Source: Natrinema longum (GTDB taxonomy: Archaea; Halobacteriota; Halobacteria; Halobacteriales; Natrialbaceae). Taken from it: a stretch of 64,000 bases of DNA. Within the stretch, counting starts at the first letter, position 1, and every line of letters starts with the position of its first letter. The translations under genes were made by a program, and so were the position numbers. Shown here in pieces: positions 9,019 to 58,087 of the stretch. The DNA is taken from contig NZ_CP071463.1 in assembly GCF_017352095.1 (NCBI RefSeq), positions 2,914,001 through 2,978,000 of the forward strand. The letters run 5' to 3'. The notes beneath the pieces are model-generated. The model saw only the letters and a list, made by a program, of their open reading frames with translations, was not told where the DNA came from and searched no databases.

Positions 9019-9210
9019 GCCACCGCAGTCCGTCGCTGACCGGTAAATCCCGCCGATTTGCCTTTTCTCGCGCTCGACTCGACACGTATCGACCGATACG
9101 ACTCCGGCGAACGCCACGGACTCACGAGATAGCACCCACCCGTAGGGCGGTCGCTGCTACACGGTCGAATCCGGCGGAGAACATCGGCTCACCCGGAGAA
9201 CGTCGGGTCT

Positions 9211-9292
9211 ATCGGAGCCACCGAAAGTCGATGGACACCCGATCGCATGACGGTGTTGCGATCAATGTGTGAATCGGTTCAGTGGCTCCGAT
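9211..9292. repeat. Double-hairpin intergenic repeat, copy A
   Basis: Outer arms 9211-9225 and 9278-9292 pair over 15 positions, with one mismatch that becomes a G-U pair in minus-strand RNA. Inner arms GATCGCA (9241-9247) and TGCGATC (9257-9263) enclose a 9-base loop. The right arm covers the last codons and stop (9279-9281) of the regulator gene on the minus strand, so it lies at that gene's 3' end. Sequence and architecture match copies B (57756) and C (52590). Confidence 0.8.
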
Positions 9293-10082
9293 GGGTGAGC
9301 TTTGCGGCACAGAGTTCGCCGATCGCCCGTCGGAGCCGCTGGGAGACGGCCGACTTCGAGACGTCGAGTCGATCCGCGAGTTCGTCCTGCGAAATACCCC
9401 GCGGGACGTCGAAATACCCTTCCTCGTGGGCGACCGCGAGCAGCTCCTGTTGTTTGTCGGTGAGGGCGACGACGCCGTCGTCCTCCTCGTCGGAGACGCG
9501 AAGGTGGTCGACAGTGACTGAGATATCGATGTCCCGACAGTAGTCGTTGAACGCGACGAGACGGTCCCGGTCGGGGAACCGAAGCTGGACGAGCCAGCCG
9601 TCTCGAGTGCTCGAGTACTCGAGCACTCGGCCGCCGACCGCGGCGGTTTTGGCGGTAAACGGGAGCGCACGGTCGGTGCGCTCGACGCGGTAGACCCGTC
9701 TGTCCGGGTAGCGATCCACGAGAACCGGATCGGCGACGGTCGGGTCCGTCCCGAGAGCGGTTTCGAACGCCTCGAACGTGGTGCCATACACGGTGACGAA
9801 CACGAGCGTTCGGTCCGGTTCGACGGTCGTCCAGTAGTCGGGCTGGACGGTAACGGCCGGAGCGTTTCGGAGCGTCGGACCCAAGAACAGGTTCGGATGC
9901 TCGAGGCGAAGCTGGGCGACGATGCCGCCATCTGCCGTCGATGGGACTCCGGGCTGGTCGGTCTCGGCTGGCGCTGCAGCGTCGGTGGCGCTCTCGGCGG
10001 CCCCGGCGTCTTCGGTCACATCCCCGGTATCGGCGACGTCCTCGGTATCGGCGATATCGATACTCACGGGTCCATCCGCCAT
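9279..10082 (-). CDS. Bat-type HTH transcriptional regulator
   Basis: The 267-residue protein ends in an HTH_10 domain (about 205-262): ALTDKQQELLAVAHEEGYFDVPRG, then the recognition region DELADRLDVSKSAVSQRLRRA. This pattern is that of bacterio-opsin-activator-like regulators of haloarchaea. The middle (55-200) resembles the Bat-associated input domain. The first 50 residues are acidic low complexity. The gene probably acts as a single transcription unit, with an intergenic hairpin repeat at its 3' end. Target genes are unknown. Confidence 0.88.
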   Translation of the reverse strand: MADGPVSIDIADTEDVADTGDVTEDAGAAESATDAAAPAETDQPGVPSTADGGIVAQLRLEHPNLFLGPTLRNAPAVTVQPDYWTTVEPDRTLVFVTVYGTTFEAFETALGTDPTVADPVLVDRYPDRRVYRVERTDRALPFTAKTAAVGGRVLEYSSTRDGWLVQLRFPDRDRLVAFNDYCRDIDISVTVDHLRVSDEEDDGVVALTDKQQELLAVAHEEGYFDVPRGISQDELADRLDVSKSAVSQRLRRAIGELCAAKLTHRSH

Positions 10083-50469: not shown

Positions 50470-51671
50470 CGCGTATTACCGACGTTCGGCTGCGCCGGAT
50501 TCTCGACTCGCGAGGGAACCCGACGGTCGAAGCGGACGTCCTGACGGAAAGTGGCGGCTTCGGCCGCGCTGCAGCACCAAGCGGTGCCAGCACCGGCGAG
50601 TACGAGGCCGTCGAGCGGCCGCCAAACGAGGCGATCGCCGCGGCCCGGGAACACGCCGTTCCCCGACTCGTCGGCGAGGTCTACGCGGGCAACCAGCGTG
50701 ACGTCGACGCGGCGCTCCACGCCGCCGACGGGACCGACGACTTCTCCGAGATCGGGGCCAACAGCGCGGTCGCGATCTCCATGGCCGCCGCGAAGGCCGG
50801 TGCCGACGTGCTCGGTGCACCGCTCTTTCAGCACCTCGGTGGCACGTTCCGCGGCGAGAACTCCCCGATTCCGCTCGGGAACGTCGTCGGTGGCGGCGAA
50901 CACGCCGCCGACGCGACCGACATTCAGGAGTTCCTGGCTGCACCCGTCGGCGCACCCAGCGTCGCGGATGCCGTCTTCGCCAACGCGGCCGTCCACGCCG
51001 CCGTCGCCGACCTGCTCGAGGAACGCGACGTTCCGTGCGGGAAAGGCGACGAGGGCGCGTGGGCACCGTCGATCGACGACAGCGAGGCCTTCGAGGTCGT
51101 CGACGAAGCGGTCTCGATGGTCGCCGACGAGGTCGGCTTCAACATCGGCTTCGGGCTGGACGTGGCCGGCGCTGAACTGTACGATTCCGACTCCGGGACG
51201 TACGAGTACAGCGACCGCAGCCGTGACACCGACGAGCAGATCGCCTACATCGCCGAACTCGTCGAGGAGTACGATCTGGTCTACGTCGAGGATCCTCTCG
51301 ACGAGGACGATTACGACGCCTTCGCCGACCTCACCGACGAGGTCGGCGATCAGACGCTGGTCTGTGGTGACGACCTGTTCGTCACCAACACCGAGCGTCT
51401 CGTCGAGGGAATCGATCGCGGCGCGGCAAACAGCATCCTGATCAAGCCAAACCAGATCGGGACGCTGACGGACGCCTTCGACGCGATCGAACTCGCGACG
51501 CGGAACGGTTACGATTCGGTCGTCTCCCATCGGTCGGGCGAGACCGAAGACGCGACGATCGCACACCTCGCTGTTGCGACCGACGCCCCCTTCATCAAGA
51601 CGGGTGCCGTCGGCGGCGAGCGAACTGCAAAGCTCAACGAGCTCATTCGAATCGCAGACGACGCGACATGA
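50466..51671 (+). CDS. eno: Enolase
   Basis: The 401-residue glycolytic enzyme interconverts 2-phosphoglycerate and phosphoenolpyruvate. Visible motifs: [27 protein letters not shown], the Mg ligands in [10 protein letters not shown] and CGDDLFVTN, the catalytic Lys in LIKPNQIGT and SHRSGETED. It lies between rpoK and rps2 with four-base overlaps, the usual archaeal arrangement. Confidence 0.97.
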
Positions 51672-52477
51672 CAGAGAACGATGCAACCCAGGAAGGGCTC
51701 GACGCCGCCGAGGAGGCGATCGACGAGGAGCCAGCCGAAGGGGCTGGCCCCGCCGCCGACGCCGACGACGTCGAGCCAGTAGACGAACAGTCCGCCGACG
51801 CCGAGGGAGCACCCACGGCCGACGCAGAACAAGCCGACGACGCCGAAAGCGAGGATGCCGGGCCGACCCTCGACGACGACGTGATGTCCGACGAGGAGGC
51901 CGACCTCCTCATCCCCGTCGAGGACTACCTCGGCGCTGGCGTCCACATCGGGACCCAGCAAAAGACTCAGGACATGGAGCGGTTCATCCACCGCGTCCGA
52001 ACCGACGGGCTCTACGTGCTCGACGTCTCGAAGACCGACGGCCGTATCCGTACGGCCGCGGACTTCCTCGCGAACTACGACCCCGAGCAGATCCTCGTCA
52101 CCTCGAGTCGCCAGTACGGTCGGTTCCCGGCGGAGAAGTTCGCCGAAGCCGTCGGCGCTCGCGCCCGGACCGGTCGCTTCATCCCGGGGACGCTGACGAA
52201 CCCTAAGTACGACGGCTACATCGAGCCGGACGTACTGGTCGTCACCGACCCGATCGGCGACGCCCAGGCCGTCAAGGAGGCCATCACGGTCGGCATCCCG
52301 GTCATCGCGATGTGTGACTCGAACAACCAGGTCAGTAACGTCGACCTCGTCGTCCCGACGAACAACAAGGGTCGCAAGGCCCTCTCGGTCGTCTACTGGC
52401 TGCTCGCCAACGAGGTCCTCGACCGACGCGGTGCCGAGCCGTCCTACTCGCTCGAGGACTTCGAAAGTACCGTATAA
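51668..52477 (+). CDS. rps2: 30S ribosomal protein S2
   Basis: Residues 85-269 are the S2 core ([88 protein letters not shown]). Residues 1-80 are an acidic Ala/Asp/Glu extension typical of haloarchaeal S2. It is the last gene of the operon; a T-run follows at 52501-52504. The conserved mevalonate genes come after an interrupted stretch. Confidence 0.97.
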
Positions 52478-52589: not shown

Positions 52590-52670
52590 CTATAGTAGCC
52601 ACTGGAACGATTGCCACACTGACCGCAACGCCGGTATTCGGTCAGGTGTGCATTGACCTTCAGTAGCGAC
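52590..52670. repeat. Double-hairpin intergenic repeat, copy C
   Basis: Left outer end CTATAGTAGCCACTGGAA (52590-52607) and right end TTCAGTAGCGAC (52659-52670) flank an inner stem CCACACTGACCG (52614-52625) pairing with CGGTCAGGTGTG (52639-52650). In the inner stem TGACCG/CGGTCA replaces TGATCG/CGATCA of copy B, a paired change that keeps the stem. It lies between rps2 and a broken HTH gene. Confidence 0.78.
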
Positions 52671-52753
52671 GGAGAGGGTGATCCAGTATGGATCAATAGG
52701 CATGTTACCATGCCCCAATATTTACTGTGTTGGACGTTATCGTTCGATTTACT

Positions 52754-57555: not shown

Positions 57556-57755
57556 CGTACACCCCACTCGCGCAGTCACGTCTGGACACGGTATGTAACG
57601 GCATTTTGGTTCGGTCTCATTAATCCATCGTAAGTCGCCGTCCGTCGCGACCGATCCCTCGTACGGATCACTACTGGTGGAACGCGGGCAGTTCCGGGCA
57701 ACGAGTACCGTTCCCCGGGTGTGGGACGGGGATCTATATACGAACTGTGCGTATA

Positions 57756-57841
57756 CTATAGTCGCAACTGGAAGTCATTGCACACCTGATCGCACGACAG
57801 CGTTGCGATCAGTGTGTAACTCGTTTCAGTTGTTACTACAG
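57756..57841. repeat. Double-hairpin intergenic repeat, copy B
   Basis: Left end CTATAGTCGCAACTGGAA (57756-57773) pairs with right end TTCAGTTGTTACTACAG (57825-57841). Inner arms CACACCTGATCGCA (57781-57794) and TGCGATCAGTGTG (57804-57816) form a 13-bp stem with one bulge and a 9-base loop. It ends three bases before the ATG of the small membrane protein gene, so it fills that gene's 5' region. It is the most regular of the three copies. Confidence 0.82.
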
Positions 57842-57844
57842 ACC

Positions 57845-58087
57845 ATGAGCGTTCGATTACCAAGCGTTCGTCACCCACGTTCGTTTTACGACGTGTTCGG
57901 CGTCGTCGCCGCCGCGGTGACGATCATGGCCCTCGTGCTCGCCGTTCGATACGGGTCGGTCGTTCGGCTCGAGATGGCCGCCTTCATGACGGTCGTCTTC
58001 CTGTGGGCCGGCTGGGCGATCGAGCGGATTCTGGCGGAATCCAAAGACCGAGCGAGAACACAACGGCGGGATCCGCCCTGGAACTGA
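57845..58087 (+). CDS. Small two-helix membrane protein next to Trk genes
   Basis: The 80-residue protein has two hydrophobic helices (about 17-38 and 44-60) and a basic C-terminal tail (KDRARTQRRDPPWN). No family is recognised. It lies between two Trk units and 143 bases before trkA in the same direction. The start is uncertain because a hairpin repeat occupies the sequence directly before it. A role as Trk accessory subunit is only a guess from location. Confidence 0.65.
   Translation: MSVRLPSVRHPRSFYDVFGVVAAAVTIMALVLAVRYGSVVRLEMAAFMTVVFLWAGWAIERILAESKDRARTQRRDPPWN

Follow-up and report, generated by a model that had tools for sequence, protein, structure and literature searches.

Three short repeats (copies A, B and C) in a 64,000-nucleotide stretch of the Natrinema longum genome, hereafter the window, are very probably copies of a mobile non-autonomous DNA transposon (MITE). 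The repeat is a widespread, TA-duplicating haloarchaeal MITE and a new representative of a known type. It is short, non-coding and multicopy, carries TIRs and a target site duplication, and shows insertion polymorphism. A sequence-only reading of this DNA had proposed either an RNA role or a mobile miniature element that had landed at a gene end. The second proposal is upheld by polymorphic insertion, TA target duplication and high copy number, and copy A reached its gene end by insertion. The mobility, size and target of the element are shown by comparison of genomes, as read from filled and empty sites.

The three elements proved to be real and related. In one common register they form three 86-bp blocks, namely copy A (9209-9294, plus strand), copy B (52590-52675, minus strand, hence in the opposite orientation, and more diverged) and copy C (57756-57841, plus strand, a young insertion with a precise empty site in another genome of the same species, G268). 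The layout of the block is C-TA-[80-bp near-perfect palindrome]-TA-G; the 80-bp element contains no genes and its ends read TAGTAGC(A/C)ACTGAAA. In copy A the block consists of a flanking C, TA, the element, TG (from TA) and G. Its core spans 9212-9291 on the plus strand, the register being taken from filled/empty comparisons of other copies, and the same register places the putative target duplications at 9210-9211 (TA) and 9292-9293 (now TG). The nested design described earlier was borne out, with an outer stem formed by columns 2-18 and 69-85 and an inner stem by columns 23-41 and 46-64 of each block. By folding and covariation, the outer arms of copy A on the plus strand are 9210-9226 and 9277-9293, and its inner stem pairs 9231-9249 with 9254-9272. 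The inner motif GATCGCA/TGCGATC, previously ascribed to all three copies, is present in A and C and absent from B, which has GACCGCA. As had been noted, the arm mismatch of copy A is a G-U pair on the minus strand (C.A on the plus strand), and the arm contains the stop codon (TGA, 9279-9281) of the minus-strand ORF 9279-10082. Copies A and C fold far better than shuffled sequence (z scores of -5.4/-7.4 and -7.0/-4.1, respectively), and copy B (only -2.4/-2.2) is decayed. The three did not stand out when ungapped palindromic matches were counted across the window.

Further copies, for which a search had been suggested, were found. The search of the own genome (one 3.59-Mb contig) gave 43 matches at about 41 sites (best E value 8.5e-40), thereby excluding a chance likeness of A, B and C. 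At least five additional, divergent copies beyond these matches were recovered with the end sequence, and the 86-bp block is present in at least 45 copies in all.

The regions orthologous to those around A, B and C were taken from 29 Natrinema genomes. In G268 the gaps corresponding to A, B and C are all devoid of the element. The A and B gaps are too diverged between the strains to give an exact empty site. At copy C, the flanks join exactly in G268 and the element is absent from every alignable Natrinema orthologue; thus, the empty state is ancestral. The copy-A gap of genome G021 carries an independent insertion downstream of the regulator orthologue (L106:1349-1434), at a different position and in the other orientation. 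G268 was also searched with the flanks of 27 other own copies, which yielded 9 readable empty sites; these, together with copy C, two sites from other genomes and one compound insertion, gave 13 filled/empty comparisons, with precise empty sites in G268 and G007. Every filled site with a single copy showed a net gain of 82 bp, except for a 2-bp irregularity at one of them (L022). Occupancy thus differs at many readable sites between two strains of one species.

The 4-mers at the 13 empty sites were CTAT, ATAG, CTAC, CGGG, CCAG, CTGG, CTAC, CTAT, CTAG, TTGG, CTAG, CTGG and CTAG. Eight have a central TA, and the other five have TG (three sites), CA or GG. In the closest pair, the flanks of which are nearly identical, the empty site reads CCGCGC-CTAG-AGATCC and the filled site CCGCGC-CTA[80 bp]TAG-AGATCC. 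TA is present on both sides at the cleanest sites, that is, in this pair and around a unit composed of repeat, cargo and repeat. In 91 full copies, the first base of the block is C 73 times and the last is G 76 times; these two (bases 1 and 86) do not covary and follow the target, and therefore belong to the flank and not to the element. The simplest reading of these alignments would be that the element is 80 bp long, duplicates 2 bp (TA) and prefers CTAG. The duplication, as seen by aligning filled with empty sites, is shown by the cleanest sites and appears imperfect at older ones, and the five empty sites without TA require either later substitutions or looser targeting.

The repeat-cargo-repeat unit lies elsewhere in the own genome (2782923-2785155; L344:1424-3657). 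Two copies with identical 80-bp cores flank, in direct orientation, 2.06 kb of foreign, low-GC DNA that contains two ORFs without Pfam matches, and G268 has a plain CTAG at the corresponding site. This compound insertion arose either through compound transposition or when a circle was integrated by recombination of two copies. Plasmid records gave no source for the 2-kb cargo.

All 38 own copies that could be classified are intergenic (12 convergent, 19 tandem and 7 divergent). Their overlap with a called gene never exceeds 30 bp, and called genes make up 85.6% of the window. Such avoidance of genes is what purifying selection against insertions gives. Gaps between genes would tolerate insertion, so that copies would accumulate there, often beside stop codons. 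The excess beside stop codons is weak (16 of 38 copies within 20 bp, as compared to 11.6 expected; P 0.02) and depends on gene calls by a simple home-made program. At copy A, the affected gene encodes a BAT/HTH_10 regulator (9279-10082, minus strand), the C-terminus of which reads ...KLTHRSH-stop, with the stop codon supplied by the right arm of the element. In the orthologue of G268, the stop codon TAG directly follows CTC ACC. The insertion of copy A would thus have replaced the last codons and the stop of the regulator, and it may have a local effect on transcripts. Copy B is located between the ribosomal protein S2 gene (51668-52477, plus strand) and the next gene. Copy C lies 3 bp upstream of the start of an 80-aa ORF (57845-58087, plus strand; no Pfam match) and downstream of a TATA-box-like sequence, TCTATATAC (57733-57741, plus strand), which is conserved in orthologues and is a putative promoter element. 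The distance from this box to the ATG (57845) is about 20 bp in the empty allele and about 100 bp with copy C. Since copy C is placed between the two, the transcript should gain a hairpin leader. Effects on the host, including those at A and C, are predictions from gene layout.

The arms of the element covary. Among 79 distinct copies, columns 2-18 paired with columns 69-85 in 90.8% of cells; 15 base pairs had changed on both sides (8.0 in shuffles), and 81 cells carried changes on both sides (25.5 in shuffles). This covariation is strong and real but has explanations other than RNA. We consider the chances about even that it reflects palindrome correction (template switching in a hairpin) or conversion between copies, either of which is compatible with a MITE. 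Orthologous copies of the two strains show paired double changes, at columns 8-79 of L003 (A-T in one and C-G in the other) and at columns 5-82 of L025, in both cases with flanks 94-98% identical, and in two of the seven copies shared by both strains the interior is inverted in place. Against this, just two double changes and two inversions were seen, and re-insertion at the same target, or selection by the transposase on the ends, could give the same picture. The two inverted copies are L009 and L026, in which the repeat occupies the same site in the own genome and in G268 and its interior is inverted in one of the two. At the seven sites filled in both strains, the element is mostly as diverged as its flanks or more so. 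Shared copies mostly diverging at the flank rate, together with two of seven inverted, indicate that the structure is probably due to palindrome dynamics or mobility and not to a selected RNA. Across 91 aligned copies, the A/T columns 2, 5, 8, 17, 18, 71, 79 and 82 of the arms have changed mostly by transversion (A to C, T to G) and not by transition.

An enzyme acting in trans would cut at both arms and paste the element, and insertion into the TA of CTAG-like targets, with duplication of TA, would match what IS630/Tc1-mariner transposases are known to do. Both IS630 and ISY100 target TA and leave it duplicated (PMC2170065), and IS630 has been described as favouring TA within 5'-CTAG-3' (Tenzen and Ohtsubo 1991, as cited in PMC2170065). 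Given the TA duplication and the preference for CTAG, as published for IS630, the element works like an IS630-type MITE, and the mobilising enzyme is probably of the IS630 type. We infer the identity of the transposase from these features, and liken the element to IS630 MITEs rather than place it among them. No IS630 transposase was detected in the own genome with NF033545 (E 1e-3) or PF13358 (E 0.01), nor with these models in the copy-rich genomes G005, G007 and G009. Repeat copy numbers and counts of IS630 matches do not correspond, by inspection, across 25 Natrinema genomes. A long autonomous element with the ends of the repeat was not found in G000, G009 or G170 when up to one mismatch was allowed, the matches being of the 86-bp class only. 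The partner transposon may reside in another genome or share only the last few bases.

IS630 elements of relatives (other Natrinema plus one outgroup) were considered as parents. Their loci were fetched and their ends defined and compared; none matched. The ends of the six groups, TAGTGATT, TAATGA (two groups), GTAGTACG, GTAATGATC and CTAGTGTACTG, differ from those of the repeat. Most of these IS630 elements (L297-L310, from G170, G023, G033 and others) have inserted into near-perfect palindromes (arm length about 10-12 bp), at the TA in the centre, which suggests targeting of hairpins or terminators. Insertion of the repeat into palindromes in the same manner was rejected, the flanks of 91 copies being not palindromic overall. 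It is unlikely that the element instead moves without an IS630-type transposase, its arms kept by palindrome correction and in-place inversion and cargo carried as a compound transposon, by a kind of enzyme not yet linked to targeting of TA in CTAG.

It is very improbable that selection spread the repeat as a structured RNA (a terminator, 3' end or stability hairpin), mobility being only its means of dispersal. The strong folds, the double-sided changes in the arms and the excess of copies beside stop codons are in keeping with such a role. However, an Rfam search of the window returned nothing at the repeats above the gathering score and only two tRNAs, elsewhere. Moreover, copies occupy divergent and upstream positions as well (7 of 38 divergent; copy C between the TATA-like box and the ATG), many sites are unshared between two genomes of one species, and the shared copies mostly equal or exceed their flanks in divergence. 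Thus, the role in termination or stability put forward earlier finds no support in Rfam, in the mixed convergent, tandem and divergent settings, in the unshared sites or in the shared copies, and the repeat is most likely not an RNA gene.

HUH elements leave the target unduplicated and integrate on the 3' side of a fixed tetramer. Movement of a single-stranded hairpin by an HUH nuclease (IS200/IS605- or RAYT-like), as thought for PATEs and REPs, is equally improbable: the element is almost perfectly palindromic over its full length, its arms covary, the arm contains GTAG, and palindromic haloarchaeal elements linked to IS605 do exist (PMC3119063), but TA flanks both sides at the cleanest sites, and in place of the expected fixed 5' tetramer, 9 of 10 pairs had target base 4 at the right end and 7 of 10 had target base 1 at the left. 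An IS605-type phase, with a constant left tetramer and no duplication, was rejected because target base 4 follows the right flank.

Correia elements and RUP are examples of IS630/Tc1-mariner-type MITEs. Like such MITEs, the repeat is short and non-coding, with TIRs and a TA target duplication; unlike them, it is palindromic throughout and not just at its ends. It also differs from IS630-derived elements in that no IS630 has matching ends and its own genome has no IS630 gene. Resemblance to REP/BIME with RAYT lies in the palindromic, intergenic nature of the repeat, in some tandem pairs and in GTAG in the arm, whereas its length of 80 bp (as compared to 20-40), its TA duplication and its polymorphic single insertions set it apart. 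SMR-A and SMR-B of Haloquadratum walsbyi (PMC3119063) are likewise haloarchaeal, with prominent inverted repeats and tens of copies; their size class of 80-110 bp fits the repeat, and neither they nor the repeat have a transposon with matching ends. In contrast to the repeat, however, the SMRs insert without duplicating their target, and SMR-A targets the palindromes of IS605-type elements (PMC3119063), whereas the flanks of the repeat are not palindromic. PATEs of Haloquadratum (PMC3119063) are also haloarchaeal, palindromic, non-coding and mobile, but they derive from IS605-type ends and have neither TIRs nor target duplications, both of which the repeat has.

The family extends well beyond the own genome. 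Of the 25 genomes in the genus set, 24 had at least one match, and in the sample of the order Halobacteriales, matches were obtained in 124 of 392 genomes, which belong to 33 of the 95 genera and to at least four families. Among plasmid records, 52 had matches at 221 places, covering many haloarchaeal genera and many megaplasmids; the carriers include Natrialba magadii, Haloarcula hispanica, Halomicrobium mukohataei and Haloterrigena. A viral origin was also considered and rejected, with no match in phage records and none in IMG/VR to an exact 31-base half-element pattern. Open-licence literature, searched for haloarchaeal MITEs and for the literal sequence, gave no description of the repeat, which could still be listed in ISfinder or described in a subscription paper.

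A repeat common to at least four haloarchaeal families, the positions of which still differ within a species, contributes to differences between strains in their gene ends and promoters, and offers haloarchaeal genomics a mobile marker. It poses the question of which enzyme moves it, given that several copy-rich genomes are without a detectable IS630 transposase, and also of why it targets CTAG. This tetramer is depleted about tenfold in the window, although it is the target of the element: it occurs 20 times, where base composition would predict about 207 occurrences and a Markov estimate 52. The repeat also forms tandem pairs, observed at L263:3001-3164, at L020 and at C48, C49 and C5 of G007, where the second copy begins at or near the end of the first.
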